DNA of 64,000 bases from Deltaproteobacteria bacterium (GCA_029777945.1 JAKORG010000049.1:1-64000), one strand, 5' to 3'; shown: positions 26,078 through 34,923, numbered from the stretch's first letter. Notes: generated from the sequence alone by a model not told the origin. Made by a program: numbers and translations.

Positions 26078-26926
26078 TTGATTAAAAGGATGATAAAGGA
26101 ACATGATTTTCCACCACCCCAGGTCCAGATAGAGGCAAGAATTGTCCAGGCCTATTCAGATTTTTCAAAGGAGCTTGGCGTTCAATGGGGGGCTTCATAT
26201 AAATGGACAAGCAGTGAATTAGGGAATAAACATGTTGAAATAGGTGCAAGCAAAAATTACGGGGCCTCATCTTCAGCAACCTCTTATACTTCACCCACTG
26301 GTATTGTTGGTGTAAGGCCTGGAGGTGATAGTTTTCCGTATAATGTAAATCTCCCTGCTGCAGTAGGTGTGGGCTCAGGTGGAACTTTTGGTATATTCAT
26401 CGGTTCTGTTGCAGATTCCTTCAAACTTGATGTGCAGCTATCTGCCCTTGAAACTTTAGGGAAGGGTAAAGTAATATCCAATCCAAAAATTATTACATCA
26501 GATAATAAGCCGGCTATTATTAAACAGGGTCAACAAATACCGTATCAAACTGTATCGCAGCAGGGCACACAAACAGAATTAAAGGATGCGGTGTTGTCCC
26601 TTGAAGTTACACCTCAGGTAACAAAAGACAACAACATAAAACTAAAGATAAAAGCCACGAAAGACAGACCCCTTGCAGCGGTTGCAGCAGGCATACCTAT
26701 AGACAAAAAGGAGGCATCCACCGAATTGATAGTAAAAGACGGTGAGACTGCAGTGTTGGGCGGAATATATGAAATAGAAGACGGTGATTCTGAATCAGGG
26801 GTACCATTTTTTAGTAAAATCCCTCTTTTTGGATGGTTATTTAAAAAGGAAGCAAAAACAGATAATAGAACTGAATTATTGATCTTTGTTACCCCAAAGA
26901 TAATTAAAAATTTTTATAACAAATAG
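26078..26926 (+). CDS. PilQ C-terminal fragment (secretin domain)
   Basis: This is the part of the secretin frame downstream of the premature stop that begins at a TTG codon; the open frame actually extends back to 25988. It contains PQVQIEARIV, KGKVISNPKIITSDNKPA, VTPQVTKDNNIKLKI and SKIPLFGWLFK, the conserved secretin blocks. There is no ribosome site or signal peptide in front of the TTG, so independent export is unlikely. Confidence 0.6.
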   Translation: MIKRMIKEHDFPPPQVQIEARIVQAYSDFSKELGVQWGASYKWTSSELGNKHVEIGASKNYGASSSATSYTSPTGIVGVRPGGDSFPYNVNLPAAVGVGSGGTFGIFIGSVADSFKLDVQLSALETLGKGKVISNPKIITSDNKPAIIKQGQQIPYQTVSQQGTQTELKDAVLSLEVTPQVTKDNNIKLKIKATKDRPLAAVAAGIPIDKKEASTELIVKDGETAVLGGIYEIEDGDSESGVPFFSKIPLFGWLFKKEAKTDNRTELLIFVTPKIIKNFYNK

Positions 26927-26935
26927 GGGGTAAAT

Positions 26936-28267
26936 GTGAAAAAAAATATTATGTTACGCATAATCATTTTATTGTTCTTTACAATATTTTTTGCCTCAGA
27001 CTCATTTTGTCAGGTGATAAAAACAAAGATTATAGGCACGAGTGAAGATAAACTCTATGTTGCCACTGATGAAAATATAGTTATAAATGGTGGTAAAAAT
27101 TTTGGCATTATTAAAGGAGATATCCTTTCAATATTCAAAAAAGATGCTAAACCACCAATGGACGATGAAATAGGAAGGTGTGTTGTTGTTAAAAATGAAA
27201 AGAATACAAGTATCTGTAACATAATAAAATCGAAAATCGAGATAGGTAAAGGTGATTTTGTAATCTTAAAAAAATTAAAATATTCTGATCCTAAATTGTA
27301 TCCTTTAATTTATGCAGCATTGAATGAAATCGTTGAACCATACGAAAATCACAGACATATAAGAGTTTACATCCACAATATTTACGATGAAAAAAATAAT
27401 ATTACAGAATTTTCCCAGATGATAAAAGAACAGATTTTGGATATTTTCAGTAAAAAGGAAAGGCTACTTTTAGATACCTCTATTTTGAATGAATATATGG
27501 GTTATCAGGACGATTATTTTTATTCTGATATTGATAGCTCAAAACAGGGGTGCATTTTTAACCTTAAGAAAAAAATGGAACAGTTCAAAATCGATGTTGT
27601 GATAACAGGCTATTATACTGTAAAAAATGACGTTTTAATGGTAAAGCTCTTCATAGTTGACAAAAACTGGGAAGACAAATCTGTAAAAGACTTTTTGTCA
27701 GCCAAAGATTATTACGAAAAGATTTCAAAAATAATAATACCCTACAAACCTTTCAAAGAAAAGGAGTTTGTGAATTATAAATTTATTTTAAACATTAAAG
27801 ACTACTTACCTGATTTAGATGAACAGAGGGAGATTATAAAGCTCGAATCTGAGAAAGAGATGAATTTCAGATTTAAGTTTATAAACAGCAAATTAAAATT
27901 TAATAGAATAAGCCCCAGCGATATCAACGTAAAGGTAAATAACGAACTAATAACTGAAATCCATAGGGGAGATGTCTATGAAAAATCATTTGAAAAAGGT
28001 TTAAAGAGGATACTCGTTTCTTTTATACCTACCCTTTATGATAATGAACTGGAAATAATTTCTTTAAAAAAGGAGATAAAAAAAGAAATCCTCGTTGATT
28101 TAAAGGACGAAAACGATATATACGTAGAGATTTTTCTTGATTCCACTTATGGTAAGGAATCTGCGGATATAAAAGTCATTAGAAAAAAGATTGATGAAAA
28201 GATAAAATTGAGTCCAGTTAAAACTGTAAAAGAAAAATTACCTACAATAGAACTTTATAGAGATTAA
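26936..28267 (+). CDS. Exported protein of unknown function, FlgT/CsgG-like features
   Basis: The 443-residue protein begins with a signal peptide (MKKNIMLRIIILLFFTIFFA, cleavage after about 26). Residues 28-65 (TKIIGTSEDKLYVATDENI then GGKNFGIIKGDILSIF) resemble the small beta-barrel repeat at the C-terminus of FlgT-like flagellar proteins. A middle region (about 120-235; KIDVVITGYYTVKNDVLMVKL) resembles the nucleotide-free fold of CsgG/TolB-N proteins. The C-terminal third has no recognisable domain. The start is GTG. It follows pilQ by 9 bp and precedes another exported protein, so a link with the pilus or outer membrane is plausible but unproven. Confidence 0.6.
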   Translation: MKKNIMLRIIILLFFTIFFASDSFCQVIKTKIIGTSEDKLYVATDENIVINGGKNFGIIKGDILSIFKKDAKPPMDDEIGRCVVVKNEKNTSICNIIKSKIEIGKGDFVILKKLKYSDPKLYPLIYAALNEIVEPYENHRHIRVYIHNIYDEKNNITEFSQMIKEQILDIFSKKERLLLDTSILNEYMGYQDDYFYSDIDSSKQGCIFNLKKKMEQFKIDVVITGYYTVKNDVLMVKLFIVDKNWEDKSVKDFLSAKDYYEKISKIIIPYKPFKEKEFVNYKFILNIKDYLPDLDEQREIIKLESEKEMNFRFKFINSKLKFNRISPSDINVKVNNELITEIHRGDVYEKSFEKGLKRILVSFIPTLYDNELEIISLKKEIKKEILVDLKDENDIYVEIFLDSTYGKESADIKVIRKKIDEKIKLSPVKTVKEKLPTIELYRD

Positions 28268-28277
28268 GGGGGTAAAA

Positions 28278-28697
28278 ATGAGATTTTTATATTTATTTAT
28301 TTTGTTTTTAATGGTTTTACCCTTTCCTTTAATGGGTGAAGAAAAAATAATTGATGTAAAGATGGACGATGGTTATTATTTAAATGACTTCGAGTCAAAG
28401 GAATACAAAAAATTCTTAGAAGAAATGAGAAAAACGGATTTAAAAAGGGTTTTTGTAGACTATAAAGAGGATAGAGATACACGGTACAGAAAATTAAGGG
28501 AAAGCATTATTTTTGAATCTCAAAAGGCAGCATTATTTAGTAACATATTATGGGAACAAAGACATGCTGATAGATGGGATAGGCAACAGCAATTAATTGA
28601 AAAGGTATATTCGGGAAGTAGTTTTGAATCTGACAGAGCCACAAGGGCTCTAATGTTTGGCTATCCATCTGGAAGGCGAGGAAGGGCTTCATATTAA
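28278..28697 (+). CDS. Small exported protein of unknown function
   Basis: A 139-residue product with a signal peptide (MRFLYLFILFLMVLPFPLMG), no cysteines, and a mature part rich in Arg, Asp and Glu (FVDYKEDRDTRYRKLRES; EQRHADRWDRQQQ), probably helical. GGGGGT lies six bases before the ATG. It is 10 bp behind the previous exported protein, so it is probably part of the same transcript as pilMNOPQ. I recognise no family. Confidence 0.55.
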   Translation: MRFLYLFILFLMVLPFPLMGEEKIIDVKMDDGYYLNDFESKEYKKFLEEMRKTDLKRVFVDYKEDRDTRYRKLRESIIFESQKAALFSNILWEQRHADRWDRQQQLIEKVYSGSSFESDRATRALMFGYPSGRRGRASY

Positions 28698-28715: not shown

Positions 28716-29009
28716 ATGATGGAACTTTTTTCAACCTTTAATTCTTTTTTCAATAATTGCCGTAAAACACTAAATGAATTTTTTTACGGCATGACCGTAT
28801 TCGAATTACACAAAGAATTAATGAAAGAAAAAGGAAATCTAAATAATTTTCTCCTTTTAATTGTTTTTGGAGATTTGATAGGCTTGCCCATATTCCCACC
28901 GTTTTATGCGATGAGGATCTTTCCATATACAATACCACAATTAGAGAAATGGAAAAGACAGTTGTTAAGGGAAAAAGACCTCACAGATATCATATCCAGC
29001 GATATTTAG
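28716..29009 (+). CDS. Small ArsA-partner protein, paralogue of the gene at 31036-31308
   Basis: The 97-residue protein has one hydrophobic stretch and the core FGDLIGLPIFPPFYAMRIFP, TIPQLEKWKRQLLREKDLTD. The same core occurs in the small protein encoded next to the other ArsA-like ATPase (GDMLGVPILPPYYSLRLLPY, WKRRMLREKDLTD). It is convergent with arsA-1, whose stop lies 1 bp away. I recall database families of such small proteins beside ArsA ATPases and CstA (named 'cory-CC-star'), but this copy lacks the C-terminal Cys-Cys. Function unknown; a membrane-associated docking partner is a guess. Confidence 0.65.
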   Translation: MMELFSTFNSFFNNCRKTLNEFFYGMTVFELHKELMKEKGNLNNFLLLIVFGDLIGLPIFPPFYAMRIFPYTIPQLEKWKRQLLREKDLTDIISSDI

Positions 29010-29010
29010 A

Positions 29011-29994
29011 TTAAACAAAGAGATAATCAACGAGCCTGTTTAGCATTTTTGCACCCTTAACCTCTGTTTCAAAAAGGGGGATAATTGCCCTCACATTGTT
29101 GCCAAATATTTTCCATATTTCTTCCATGTGTTCTTCCTGCATAGCTACTCTATTTAGCACGAATTCAGGGGCATTTTCCGCAACCTGATTTTTTTGGATT
29201 ATGCCATTCACCACAACACCACCAACAGGTATCCCGAAATCATAAAACCAGTTAATAAACCGCGTAATAACGGCTATGGGAAGACTTTCAGGCAGTGTTA
29301 CGAAAAAGAATGCCGTCAATTCATTATTTGTTAACAAGCCCTGTGCCTTTGACATTCTATCTTTAAAATTCAAAAGGTAGTCCATAAGGGGATCGGCTTC
29401 TTTCTTTTTTGTGTATGAAAGCAACTCTCTTAATGATTTTGCCTCTTCCCTGCTTTTTAACATCTTTTCTACCCAGAGAGAATAGACCTTAGACATACCA
29501 AGAAGTCTTCTTGCATTTGCCGTAGGTGCAGTATCAAAGACATAAAAGTCATACTCATCTTTAAACATGAGATCTATCATGTTTTCGAACATGGCTGATT
29601 CTTCAAAGGCAGGGTTCATCGTTGCAGATTCTACAAAATCATCGGCCTTTGTTGTTAAGTCAGCAAATTTTAAAAACCAGTTTATCTTTTCTTTTATCTC
29701 CAGTTTAGACCTTTCTATGGTGTCTTTTGTATCTATCTCAAAGGCATAGCACAGCTTTTCATTACACACAACCACAGGTTTACCGAATACATTCTGTTCA
29801 AAGAGATTTGAAAGACTATGCACTGGATTTGTGGATGCAAGGAGGGTTTTTTTACCCTGTTTTGCAGCCCACAGTGCAGCAGCTCCTGCCATCACTGTTT
29901 TTCCTACACCGCCTTTGCCTCCGAAAAAGATATACTTTAGATTCGGATGGTTATTCATAAATTGGGTCATACTTTCAGTGATCTGATTCATCAT
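29011..29994 (-). CDS. ArsA/Get3-like ATPase 1, altered Switch I (Asp to Asn)
   Basis: A 327-residue member of the ArsA/Get3 branch of SIMIBI P-loop ATPases. The deviant Walker A GGKGGVGKT is at 25-33 with the signature lysine. Switch I reads STNPVHSLSN (54-63): the position that is the catalytic Asp in STDPAHSLSD-type motifs is Asn56. Switch II keeps DTAPT (154-158) but lacks the following Gly-His. The fold otherwise looks intact, including NPAFEESAMF. It lies 31 bp downstream of the second ArsA gene and probably forms a heterodimer with it. There are no arsenite-binding cysteine clusters, so arsenic transport is unlikely. Confidence 0.85.
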   Translation of the reverse strand: MMNQITESMTQFMNNHPNLKYIFFGGKGGVGKTVMAGAAALWAAKQGKKTLLASTNPVHSLSNLFEQNVFGKPVVVCNEKLCYAFEIDTKDTIERSKLEIKEKINWFLKFADLTTKADDFVESATMNPAFEESAMFENMIDLMFKDEYDFYVFDTAPTANARRLLGMSKVYSLWVEKMLKSREEAKSLRELLSYTKKKEADPLMDYLLNFKDRMSKAQGLLTNNELTAFFFVTLPESLPIAVITRFINWFYDFGIPVGGVVVNGIIQKNQVAENAPEFVLNRVAMQEEHMEEIWKIFGNNVRAIIPLFETEVKGAKMLNRLVDYLFV

Positions 29995-30025
29995 TGAACT
30001 CCCTTATTCTTACTTATTAATAAAA

Positions 30026-31006
30026 CTATGTAAACATCTTTTGGGCTAACTTTTCTATCATTTCAAGACCTGTAACATCTCGTTCCATCTCTGGAACATA
30101 TGCATGAATCTGGTCTTTGAATGTATCTTTTATGACCTTGAGATATTTCTCCTGCATTTCAAGCCTATGTTTTAAATATTCAGGGATGTTTTGTCCTTTT
30201 AACTCATCTGACAATACCCTATTTACTATGTAACCGCTTAGGGGGACATCAAATTTTGCAAAGAGTTCTGCTGCCTTAACTGTATCATTGATAACCATTT
30301 CCTCAGCGGTTACAACAAAGAAAAACGCAGTCTTTTCTTTGTCTGTTAGTATGCTTGAAGATTTATTTATCCTGTCTTTTATATACAAAAGCTCGTTTAA
30401 TATCTCGTCCTCTTCCAGGTCTTTTTCTCGTTTTATAACTGCTGCCACCTGGTCATATTCTCTTATCTGTTTTCTCAAATTTGTGATTTTATCTATCCAT
30501 TCATCATAGACTGATACCATACTCAGGTAATATAAGGCATGGCCTAAGGGAACAAGGTCATATATATAATAATCATAACCGCCTTTTACGACAATATCCA
30601 CAACCTCATCGAATATTGCACTTTCTTCCATGGCAGGCTCGGCTGCTGCTGCCTGTATATAACTTTCTATTTCATCGGGAATCTTTTCCATGCCATACAT
30701 ATCAAGGATCTTTTTTCTTATCTCCTCTTGATATTCTTTTACCCTACGGTCTGCATCTATCTCTTGTGCATAAAGGTTTGGCATTATTTCTGTAGGTCCT
30801 TTACCAAATATATCCATTTTAAATATATCGCTTAGAGATGCTTGTGGATCTACAGAAAATACAAGTACTTTTTTACCTTGTTTTGCCAGATAATACGCTG
30901 TAGCCGCAGAGAATGTCGTTTTTCCAAGACCACCTTTCCCGCCGAACATTATATAACGTCTATCAGGATATTGTTCAAAAATTTTTTTAAGAGAAATAGT
31001 AACCAC
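30026..31006 (-). CDS. ArsA/Get3-like ATPase 2, canonical Switch I
   Basis: A 326-residue ATPase with deviant Walker A GGKGGLGKT (22-30), Switch I SVDPQASLSD with the Asp53 retained, and an unusual Switch II DLVPLGHALYYL (150-161) in place of DTAPTGH. It is about 40% similar by eye to the neighbouring ATPase and shares the PAMEESAIF block. The first conventional start (GTG 31006) overlaps the AGGAGG ribosome site; an ATT at 30997 lies eight bases after that site and may be the real start. The genes before and behind it on the strand are the small partner protein and ArsA-1. Confidence 0.85.
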   Translation of the reverse strand: MVTISLKKIFEQYPDRRYIMFGGKGGLGKTTFSAATAYYLAKQGKKVLVFSVDPQASLSDIFKMDIFGKGPTEIMPNLYAQEIDADRRVKEYQEEIRKKILDMYGMEKIPDEIESYIQAAAAEPAMEESAIFDEVVDIVVKGGYDYYIYDLVPLGHALYYLSMVSVYDEWIDKITNLRKQIREYDQVAAVIKREKDLEEDEILNELLYIKDRINKSSSILTDKEKTAFFFVVTAEEMVINDTVKAAELFAKFDVPLSGYIVNRVLSDELKGQNIPEYLKHRLEMQEKYLKVIKDTFKDQIHAYVPEMERDVTGLEMIEKLAQKMFT

Positions 31007-31035
31007 CTCCTTATTTAAATTAAAAAATCTGCTCT

Positions 31036-31308
31036 TTATGCAAGGGCATCTGTTAAATCTTTTTCTCTAAGCATCCTCCTCTTCCAGGTTGAAATTTGTG
31101 GAACCACATAGGGAAGAAGCCTTAATGAATAATAGGGAGGCAATATAGGAACCCCAAGCATATCACCCATTGTGATGAGGATAAATAGATGCTCCATGCT
31201 TGCCCTTGTCTTCATGGCAAATCTTGCCGAATCGTGTGCTGCCACTCCATAGACGAATTCTTTTACAGCACTAAAAAAACCACCTTTCTTTTTTTCTTTT
31301 TCTGACAT
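31036..31308 (-). CDS. Small ArsA-partner protein next to cstA
   Basis: From the ATG at 31308 (AAGGAG eight bases upstream; the GTG at 31317 overlaps that site) the protein has 90 residues. It has a lysine-rich N-terminus, a hydrophobic segment (about 41-56) and the conserved core MGDMLGVPILPPYYSLRLLP and WKRRMLREKDLTDALA shared with the small protein at 28716. It lies between cstA and arsA-2, with gaps of 36 and 29 bp, implying one transcript cstA-small-arsA2-arsA1. Confidence 0.7.
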   Translation of the reverse strand: MSEKEKKKGGFFSAVKEFVYGVAAHDSARFAMKTRASMEHLFILITMGDMLGVPILPPYYSLRLLPYVVPQISTWKRRMLREKDLTDALA

Positions 31309-31344
31309 AGATGCCACTCCTTAAAATAGTTGTTTTTTAAGCAC

Positions 31345-33030
31345 CTAAGCTTTGGCCGGTGCTGTCTGTATCCTTAATGCTCTATATCTATTGAATGCCT
31401 TTATGCCTTCCATGGCAAGGATAAGGGCAGCAATTACGAGAAATATTCCCACCACACCCATAAGTGCATTTCCGATTAATGCCTCGCCCTTTACGGCACC
31501 ACTAATTACCTTGTTTAAAAGATTATAAGATGTATATAAAAGTGCGGCAATAGTTGTGACAAACATGAAGATCATAGGATAAAATGCATATGCCACTGGC
31601 TTACCTTCTGACATGAGGTATGCTGTTACAAGCATCAATGCCAGAGATGCCATGAGTTGATTTGCACCGCCGAATAAAACCCACAGATATTGCCACCAAC
31701 CTGTAACCACAAGGAGTATACCGAGAAGACTCGCAATTATTGTGCCCACATGGGCATTTTTAAATACAGGACTTATATCACCTAATAGTTCAGATGTGGC
31801 TATCCTCATAAAACGGATAACAAGCTGCATGATGGTTATAGCAAGGACGATCATCATAACACTACCATATGCACGACCCGTATTTGCCGGTAGGCCCAAT
31901 GCACCTAAAAATTTTGAAACACCTGCTGCAAAAACACCACCCGGTCCTTTTACAATGGCTGCACCGTATTCTGCAGAAGAGGCGTATATTGTGCCTGCAA
32001 TAACCAATGCAAATACGGCAAGCATCATTTCCACAAACATTACCCCTGCACCAACGGGTCTTGCATCGAGCTCGTTTTCAAGTTGCCTTGCAGTGCCCGA
32101 TGATGAAACAAGGCTGTGCCATCCTGAAATAGCACCACATGCAATGGTAACAAACATAATAGGCCAGATAGGGCCTATCTTTATAGTAAAACCAGTGTAT
32201 GCAGGTAAGGTTATATTGGGATGGAGGATAAAAATACCTATTATCCCAAAAAATAATCCCAGAAATACGATATATGAGGCCACGTAATTTATAGGCAGGG
32301 CAAATCTCCAGATAGGCAACACTGCTGCAAAATAGCAGAAAAGAAAAGCGAGAATCGTCCATAACCATCTGCTGTTAGCCAAAGTGTCACCGATAATCCT
32401 GTCTGAGGGTAAAACAGAACCTAACCATATGCCGAATAAGGCAATAACCACTGTAATTACAGTGGTTAATATTATGTCTTTTCTCCATCTGTATATCATC
32501 TGTCCTGCAAGGATACCGCCAATTGTCATAAAAAGCCATGCCATTGGCGCTGACTTTAAGCCAGTAGCAGTGCTTACAACAACGTTTCCAAAGGCACCGG
32601 CAATGAGCAAAAGATAAAAATATAAGAAGGCAAGAAGGATTATCCTTGCCCTCGGTGAAATAAGTTTGTGGCTTAAACCACCTAAAGATGCCCCATCTTT
32701 ACGCATGGCAATCATAGCACTTGAATAATCCTGGACCCATCCTATAAAAAATGTGCCTGCAAGGATCCATATAAGGGCAGGTAGCCAACCCCACTGGATA
32801 GCAATAATGGGACCTATCACAGGTGCTGCACCTGCTATGGATTTGAACTGATAACCAAAGAGGATATTTTTACTCGTAGGCATAAACTCAACACCATCCA
32901 TATACATCTTTGCTGGTGTAACCCTTTTTGGGTCTGATTTCATGATCTTTGTATCAACATATTTTGCGTATAGACGGTAACCTAAAAAGGCCACGGCAAA
33001 ACCCAAAATTAATACAATCACCGAATTCAT
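31345..33030 (-). CDS. cstA: CstA-family carbon starvation / pyruvate-type transporter
   Basis: The 561-residue polytopic protein has about 16 hydrophobic helices and CstA signatures: VTPAKMYMDGVEFMPTSKNI, FGYQFKSIAGAAPVIGPIIA, LIWILAGTFFIGWVQDYSSA and SSGTARQLENELDARPVGAG. Characterised homologues import peptides or pyruvate. It leads an operon with the small protein and two ArsA-like ATPases; that ordering is seen in related bacteria to my recollection. A TTGACA promoter lies about 80 bp upstream. Confidence 0.92.
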   Translation of the reverse strand: MNSVIVLILGFAVAFLGYRLYAKYVDTKIMKSDPKRVTPAKMYMDGVEFMPTSKNILFGYQFKSIAGAAPVIGPIIAIQWGWLPALIWILAGTFFIGWVQDYSSAMIAMRKDGASLGGLSHKLISPRARIILLAFLYFYLLLIAGAFGNVVVSTATGLKSAPMAWLFMTIGGILAGQMIYRWRKDIILTTVITVVIALFGIWLGSVLPSDRIIGDTLANSRWLWTILAFLFCYFAAVLPIWRFALPINYVASYIVFLGLFFGIIGIFILHPNITLPAYTGFTIKIGPIWPIMFVTIACGAISGWHSLVSSSGTARQLENELDARPVGAGVMFVEMMLAVFALVIAGTIYASSAEYGAAIVKGPGGVFAAGVSKFLGALGLPANTGRAYGSVMMIVLAITIMQLVIRFMRIATSELLGDISPVFKNAHVGTIIASLLGILLVVTGWWQYLWVLFGGANQLMASLALMLVTAYLMSEGKPVAYAFYPMIFMFVTTIAALLYTSYNLLNKVISGAVKGEALIGNALMGVVGIFLVIAALILAMEGIKAFNRYRALRIQTAPAKA

Positions 33031-33107
33031 AAGCTCCCCCTTAAAATTAAAAATTTTATGGACGAGATTTTCTGTATTTAGTTATGCGTGCATTAAAATT
33101 GTTAAAC

Positions 33108-33135
33108 CATATAATTTTGAAAGTTTTTTTGTCAA
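33108..33135 (-). promoter_or_regulatory. Putative promoter for the cstA-arsA operon
   Basis: Minus strand: perfect -35 TTGACA (33135-33130), 16-bp spacer, -10 TATATG (33113-33108), giving a leader of about 70 nt before the cstA ATG. The remainder of the 273-bp divergent gap to the chemoreceptor gene is AT-rich with no gene. Confidence 0.45.
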
Positions 33136-33303: not shown

Positions 33304-34923
33304 ATGAGATTTAAAGTTTTCAATCAAAAACTAAAAGTTAAAATGATAATGCCTGTATTAATATCCATTGGGTTTATGATACTCATTAGTGCCTACACTA
33401 TTTATGAAACATTAACGAGAAAGGGTATGATGGATGAAATCACAAATATCGGAAAGGAATCGGAGCTGGTGGTAGGGCTAATAGATAGATTGGATGTAAT
33501 AAATATATATTTAAACAACCTGGAATCTACAACAAATATTTCGGATTATAAAAATAATACAGGGCATGTTAAAAAAGCATTTAATGAGCTTATAAAAGAT
33601 ATTAAAAGTTTTACTGCCAACATGAAGCAGGGAAATGAAAAGACAAGACTGGAAGACATAGCAGGAAGCTTGGAAGAACTGAGTAAGATCCTTGAAATGG
33701 ATATACAGGATGAAAGTCAAATTGGCCAAACCGTATCTTTAGTTAGCCAGAACATCAGAGGCCAGCTTGGTAAATATAAAAGTGATTTTGCAGGGCTACT
33801 TAAGGACAGAAGCAAAAGGTTTACCCAGTTTGTGCCAATAATCTCTAAAAGCACAAGAAATGCTTTAATCGCATATTTTGTAGTTATCCCCATCGCAATC
33901 ATCATTTCTATAGGCATAGGCCTTTTTTTCAGTGCTAAAACCTATAAAGGTATAAACGACTCATTAACGGGAATTGAAAAAATTTCAATGGGGAATATAT
34001 CCGAGAGACTTAATATAGGTACCGAAGATGAGATAGGTGAAATTTCTAAGAGATTGAATCAATTTGCAGAAAAATTGGAACATATAATACGTAATATCAA
34101 AAACGGCAATATGGAGATTATAAGCGTTGTCAATATGTTGAGAGAACTTGAAAAAGAGATGACAAATACAGTTGATAATACCACAGAAAAAATAAGTTCC
34201 GTTGCAATTGCCCATGAAGAGCTTGCTCAAACTGCGGGTGAGATAGCCCAGAACTGCTTTAAGGTTGTAAAAAGCGCTGAAAATTCAAAGGATATTGCAA
34301 AAAAAGGTTTTGACATAATGAACAATATTGCAGAATCCATGGAGAATACAAAAAATGTTGCAAACGATACCGTTGATGTTATGAAAAATCTTTCCAATAG
34401 CTCCATGTTTATAGAAAATATAGTTACACTAATTGAAGATATTGCGGATCAGACAAACCTCCTTGCATTAAATGCTGCAATTGAAGCGGCAAGGGCCGGT
34501 GAATATGGCAGAGGGTTTGCCGTTGTGGCAGATGAGGTAAGGTCTCTTGCAGAGAGAACTATAAAGGCAACAAAGGATATTACCGAATCCATAAAGAATA
34601 TTAAGAAAGAGATGGTTAATGCTTCTAATTTAATAGATATGAACGTGACCTCTGTTAATGAATCATTCTCAGTTGTGAATGATGCAAAACAAACCCTTCA
34701 GGAGATATTGAGCGAATCTGAAAATGTGCTTACCCAGATAAACCAGATAGCAGTAGCATCGGAAGAACAATCTGCAACAGTTAACGAGATAACAAAATCT
34801 ATAAATGATATACATAATATGATAAACAATACAGGCGAGTCCTTTAAGAACAGCTACAAAAATGTAGAAAAGCTCGTTAATCTCTCAGAAGTGCTGGAAA
34901 AGGAATTAAAGTTCTTCAGCTGA
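33304..34923 (+). CDS. Methyl-accepting chemotaxis protein
   Basis: A 539-residue transmembrane chemoreceptor: helix 1 (about 17-36), a mainly helical periplasmic sensor of about 150 residues, helix 2 (about 192-213), HAMP domain (to about 265), and the cytoplasmic signalling coiled coil with the hairpin tip [20 protein letters not shown] followed by [20 protein letters not shown]. It will bind CheW/CheA. The ligand is unknown. It could act on swimming or on pilus-based motility; no che or flagellar genes are in the window. Confidence 0.95.

Follow-up and report, generated by a model that had tools for sequence, protein, structure and literature searches.

A CstA-CstX-ArsA gene cluster with two dissimilar ArsA-family ATPases and a second CstX

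What does a pair of ArsA/Get3-family ATPases do beside a membrane carrier of the CstA family? The question is raised by a locus in a Deltaproteobacteria bacterium (GCA_029777945.1, JAKORG010000049.1:1-64000; this stretch of 64,000 nucleotides is referred to as the window). A gene for a CstA-family carrier (cstA), a small gene (cstX1) and two ATPase genes (arsA2 and arsA1) follow one another on the minus strand, and a second small gene, cstX2, converges on arsA1. A first-pass annotation, made from the sequence alone, had listed these five genes and proposed that a nucleotide-driven ATPase heterodimer inserts, regulates or couples to the transporter through the small proteins. Open reading frames and Pfam matches (CstA, and ArsA_ATPase twice) agree with the gene positions given there.

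The central idea, a coupling of ArsA to CstA by CstX, was already in print in 2010. Castillo and Saier described 26 clusters in which cstA is joined by an arsA homologue. In 24 of these a protein of about 90 residues, which they named CstX, is also encoded, and they proposed that CstX couples ATP hydrolysis by ArsA to CstA (PMC2963123). Adjacent ArsA pairs were seen in two organisms and paralogous CstX proteins in two. The window has the same genes and partner order: a CstA-family carrier, a CstX of about 90 residues between CstA and ArsA, and single-domain ArsA proteins of about 330 residues (326 and 327 in the window). As in the published clusters the operon contains no arsR or arsB, and neither gene was found among the open reading frames at 26-36 kb of the window. 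CstX was assigned to the published family by its position and size and by gene order in relatives. The window locus is a member of this published kind of cluster with a variant architecture, an ArsA pair with a fixed Asp/Asn difference and a duplicated CstX.

Two features were not found described: the Asp/Asn rule of the ArsA pairs and the association of a second CstX with paired ArsA. These, and the orthology of CstX2, come from the present analysis; on the switch-I residue the 2010 paper remarks only that D "can be substituted only by N". A literature search returned no further paper on bacterial CstX. A low-variability haloarchaeal family, arCOG03655, is described as "linked to ArsA" (PMC9425974) and may be CstX.

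Asymmetry of the ArsA pair

In orthologues aligned to the window proteins, the switch-I position is Asn in 68 of 68 ArsA1 proteins (N56) and Asp in 73 of 73 ArsA2 proteins (D53). All 137 ArsA pairs read, a partly redundant set that contains 109 non-redundant pairs, have Asp in the product of the first gene and Asn in that of the second. The P-loops also differ by partner: the first gene encodes GKGGLGKT, the second GKGGVGKT/S. Single-ArsA systems, which have the order CstA-CstX-ArsA and are found in Desulfobacterota and some Bacillota, carry Asp in 21 of 21 distinct proteins, and in most of these switch II is a standard DTxPTG. Archaeal Get3 also has Asp at the aligned position, as does each half of E. 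coli ArsA. The equivalent residue of yeast Get3 is D57, and the D57N protein binds ATP but does not hydrolyze it (PMC12506534). The Asp/Asn rule, taken together with this behavior, thus predicts that ArsA1 is a hydrolysis-deficient partner and that the pair would form an obligate heterodimer with a single engine.

Both window proteins score above the curated cut-off of the GET3/ArsA/TRC40 model TIGR00345 (206.6 and 242.4 bits; cut-off, 135). In E. coli ArsAB, two ArsA domains act together on a membrane carrier, as proposed for the window pair. The E. coli protein has fused halves, Asp in both switch I regions and arsenite-binding cysteines, whereas the window has two genes, one Asn, and CstA rather than ArsB. 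Membership in the arsenite pump family was rejected: the TIGR04291 scores are 101 and 106 bits against a cut-off of 650, and the window proteins are single domains, not two fused ones. Another system with two different ArsA-family subunits is Mycobacterium Rv3679-Rv3680 (BagA/BagB), which have been solved together (6bs3). The models for these two proteins give ArsA1 43 and 38 bits against cut-offs of 400 and 521.

Conservation of the gene unit

The conserved unit is cstA-cstX1-arsA2-arsA1, and its order hardly varies among relatives within the family. Scanning contigs of public genomes gave 80 loci with this unit, mostly in Desulfobacterota, the others in Chloroflexota, Bacillota, Spirochaetes and Latescibacterota bins. 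Further genomes of three phyla brought the set to the 109 non-redundant ArsA pairs. CstX lies directly upstream of ArsA2 in 104 of these and CstA lies within the fetched stretch in 97; most pairs without CstA or an adjacent CstX seem to be truncated where a contig or the fetched stretch ends. The loci were located through CstX, so its presence is by construction; the ArsA pair and CstA were not selected for. Among 60 relatives, every CstX-bearing genome also has a divergent CstA. The window CstA matches the PF02554 profile in two pieces, as does every CstX-linked CstA of the family, and canonical CstA differs in this respect.

Between any two of the four proteins the pairwise distances are correlated, most strongly for ArsA1 and ArsA2 (r = 0.97), and none of 300 permutations reached any of the observed values. 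CstX1 is the slowest to change, with a median identity of 85% compared with 74% for ArsA2, 69% for ArsA1 and 51% for CstA. Such conservation is expected of a protein with partners on several faces.

The unit accepts additional genes. In Desulfobacca-like loci (L120-L129), small toxin-antitoxin-like and nucleotidyltransferase/HEPN-like genes lie between cstX1 and arsA2, leaving the unit unbroken. A small thioredoxin-like gene with a YPTFIV motif and a weak Thioredoxin_3 match adjoins cstA in many Chloroflexota and some Desulfobacterota (for example L142:9274-9660, L263:3615-4160, L143:13330-13617 and L147:12994-13293); the window operon has none.

The second CstX

The survey of neighborhoods suggested by the first-pass annotation bore out one part of its five-gene cluster. 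CstX-ArsA2-ArsA1 recurs in several phyla, nearly always with CstA, but the fifth gene does not belong to the conserved physical unit: cstX2 is unlinked in nearly every relative, and a few assemblies have it without the ATPase pair. Its place in the system is supported by orthology and not by adjacency. In a tree of 69 CstX proteins, the window CstX2 groups with the CstX2 of Chloroflexota, which is encoded within the operon between CstA and CstX1 (support 99/97). cstX2 is also convergent to or near arsA1 in four other loci (L108, L116, L119 and L126).

A second CstX is present in 60 of 80 ArsA-pair genomes and in none of 22 single-ArsA genomes (Fisher p 4e-11, with the caveat that related genomes are not independent). 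By phylum, the pair genomes with a second copy number 20/36 in Desulfobacterota, 34/37 in Chloroflexota and 6/7 in Bacillota. In these counts some Desulfobacterota and Chloroflexota matches were included without the ArsA genes being read, and a few carry only a CstX2-type gene. A strict stoichiometry of two ArsA to two CstX was rejected, as 20 of the 80 pair genomes have one CstX.

The position of cstX2 beside arsA1 could be accidental, CstX2 serving another ATPase or a metal or cofactor pathway outside this machine. The gene lies apart from the operon in 19 further genomes of the family, and its neighbors differ. Among these neighbors are a Mo/W-type ABC transporter together with DUF364, Mrp and MinD-type ATPases alongside a NifX-like domain, and NifU, gamma-carbonic-anhydrase-like and radical SAM genes. 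A CstX2-type gene occurs without an ArsA pair in six assemblies, which reflects either assembly gaps or an independent role. On the other side, the in-operon orthologues of Chloroflexota place CstX2 in the system and weaken the reading of unrelated neighbors, as do the four loci where the gene lies near or convergent to arsA1. A role for CstX2 outside the machine looks unlikely.

Candidates for a conserved partner of the unlinked gene (the Mo/W ABC transporter, the Mrp/MinD-type ATPases and NifU) were rejected, since they recur within subclades and none is conserved across families. In L033, L034, L041, L042 and L046, cstX2 is the final gene of a Mo/W-type ABC transporter operon, in which the DUF364 gene has a putative role in metal chelation. 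Its neighbors in L039, L040, L043 and L044 form a cluster of Mrp/NifX and paired MinD-ferredoxin ATPase genes.

The CstX family

The first-pass annotation had recognized the two small proteins as relatives; the core and tail motifs that it described are common to both, and in a genome-wide search they match one another with E 2.4e-22, beyond what chance would give, as true paralogues. The small CstX protein is highly conserved and has neither a Pfam family nor a solved structure. CstX1 and CstX2 have no Pfam match and a Pfam scan of 72 CstX members found no family. Both match the core of the NCBIfam model NF041419 (cory-CC-star), with 36.8 and 26.8 bits, far under its cut-off of 80. Bacillota CstX proteins end in Cys-Cys, a tail that is missing from the window proteins, which end in ALA and SDI.

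In several Bacillota (L274-L281 and L293-L300), the gene after a CstX with an Asp-Trp-Cys-Cys end encodes a single, standard ArsA, and the CstA genes are elsewhere in the genome. The tail recalls the cory-CC-star name.

For CstX1 and CstX2 alike, AlphaFold2 predicts a pair of long helices connected by the G-x-P-x-x-P-P turn. The mean predicted local distance difference test (pLDDT) and predicted template modelling (pTM) scores are 84.7 and 0.57 for CstX1, and 86.3 and 0.46 for CstX2. The hydrophobic part is the segment around the turn, and a short polar tail follows. From the predicted two-helix form and this hydrophobic segment, CstX may be a membrane-associated hairpin. A fold search against the PDB gave nothing with E below 7, and a sequence profile search against the PDB gave only Mdm2 at E 0.6, a chance match.

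Proposed mechanism and its alternatives

The preferred reading, to which about an even chance is assigned, is that the two ArsA proteins form an asymmetric heterodimer, in which a single site works, and that this dimer docks through CstX hairpins and energizes or gates CstA. It is modelled by analogy on ArsA with ArsB and on E. coli CstA with YbdD. CstA would be the membrane transporter of the machine. ArsA2 and ArsA1 would pair as a heterodimer of the ArsA/Get3 kind, and hydrolysis would occur only at the site that holds the switch-I Asp of ArsA2. The ArsA1 site, with Asn, would bind ATP without hydrolyzing it and would chiefly keep the dimer closed. CstX1, together with CstX2 where present, would dock the ATPase on CstA as a two-helix membrane-associated hairpin and relay its ATP-driven opening and closing to the carrier, and uptake of an organic-acid or peptide substrate would thereby be driven or gated. 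Pyruvate, other carboxylates and small peptides are guesses at the substrate, taken by analogy from E. coli CstA. That carrier takes up pyruvate only with the help of a small partner, YbdD (PMC5847655). As in the window, the small partner is encoded beside the carrier; the E. coli system differs in having no ATPase, and YbdD is probably of a different small family.

Several points weigh against this coupling. First, every locus was located through CstX, so the sample covers only ArsA pairs that come with it. Second, correlated distances are also expected from shared ancestry or joint transfer. Third, some Bacillota have CstX and ArsA together and CstA elsewhere in the genome. Fourth, about a quarter of the ArsA-pair genomes have a single CstX, and the six assemblies mentioned above have a CstX2-type gene and no pair. 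Finally, the CstA proteins known so far are described as symporters working without an ATPase.

Instead of driving transport, the ArsA pair could be a nucleotide-dependent regulator that opens or closes CstA through CstX according to its ATP state, with slow hydrolysis as a timer. One predicted dead site fits a switch better than a pump, and related CstA carriers already use the proton gradient (PMC7730263). The present data do not separate gating from driving. The analogy with E. coli ArsA favors driving, and a purely regulatory role is considered improbable.

The pair could also be a Get3-like targeting factor that shields the hydrophobic CstX hairpin, and perhaps segments of CstA, in the cytosol and brings it to the membrane, with transport as such not coupled to ATP. 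The fold, P-loop and switch regions are common to Get3/TRC40 and the window ArsA proteins, and archaeal Get3 provides the best PDB matches and the closest solved structure. In CstX, a short polar tail comes after the hydrophobic segment. Get3/TRC40 is however a homodimer with Asp in both subunits, unlike ArsA1 with its Asn, and usually has a CxxC zinc site. No CxxC motif was found in the C-terminal part of any of the 68 ArsA1 or 73 ArsA2 proteins, which counts against targeting even though some Get3 proteins function without it (PMC10248533). The segment corresponding to the TRC40 insert, usually hydrophobic and client-binding, is charged in the window proteins, with a mean hydropathy of -0.8 and -1.3 compared with about -0.4 in archaeal Get3, a comparison over a short stretch in a rough alignment. 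The predicted hairpin with a proline-rich turn is not a plain tail anchor, and an ATPase pair dedicated to one small client would be unusual. The suggestion in the first-pass annotation that the ATPases insert the transporter is weakened by the missing CxxC motif and by the apparent lack of the hydrophobic insert. A Get3-like delivery role is less likely than docking on CstA, and is on the whole distinctly unlikely.

On a broader view, a widespread and strictly asymmetric heterodimer might have replaced an ancestral single-ArsA homodimer and, with the duplicated CstX as docking hairpins, made CstA ATP-driven or ATP-gated; this is tentative and slightly doubtful. That ArsA-family ATPases drive carriers outside arsenic resistance has been a standing proposal since 2010, and the Asp/Asn rule makes it testable. 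If one site is an engine and the other a clamp, the swaps N56D in ArsA1 and D53N in ArsA2 should have opposite, predictable effects. The pair would also be a natural counterpart of those ABC transporters in which one site is degenerate, although the two ATPase families are unrelated.

Layout of the locus and neighboring genes

Table 1. Coordinates of the cluster genes and of a promoter-like site in the window
Feature	Position	Strand	Description
cstA	31345..33030	-	561 residues; divergent CstA-family membrane carrier, CstX/ArsA-linked subfamily; PF02554 466 bits (cut-off 27)
cstX1	31036..31317	-	93 residues from GTG, 90 residues from in-frame ATG; predicted two-helix, G-x-P-x-x-P-P turn
arsA2	30026..31006	-	ArsA/Get3-family ATPase; GKGGLGKT P-loop; switch-I Asp D53 (SVDPQAS); PF02374 253 bits, TIGR00345 242 bits
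arsA1	29011..29994	-	ArsA/Get3-family ATPase; GKGGVGKT P-loop; switch-I Asn N56 (STNPVHS); PF02374 217 bits
cstX2	28716..29009	+	97 residues; CstX paralogue, convergent with arsA1
Possible sigma-70-type promoter 5' of cstA	33106..33135	-	TTGACA-18-TATGGT; pattern scan only

The total count of promoter-like sites in the pattern scan is not above that in shuffled sequence. The TAG of cstX2 ends at 29009 and the stop of arsA1 begins at 29011, which confirms the 1 bp spacer noted at first pass. On its other side cstX2 begins 18 bp after a run of plus-strand genes (26078-28697) and may be co-transcribed with it; its regulation need not be common with that of the cstA operon. The run encodes a secretin-like protein, a 443-residue protein with weak similarity to FlgT/FlgO, and a 139-residue protein that matches no family. 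A gene for a methyl-accepting chemotaxis protein (33304-34923) lies divergent from cstA. A third, single ArsA/Get3-family gene is found elsewhere in the 2.4 Mb host genome (contig C48:4600-5502), and its counterparts are present in relatives that have no CstA-CstX-ArsA operon.

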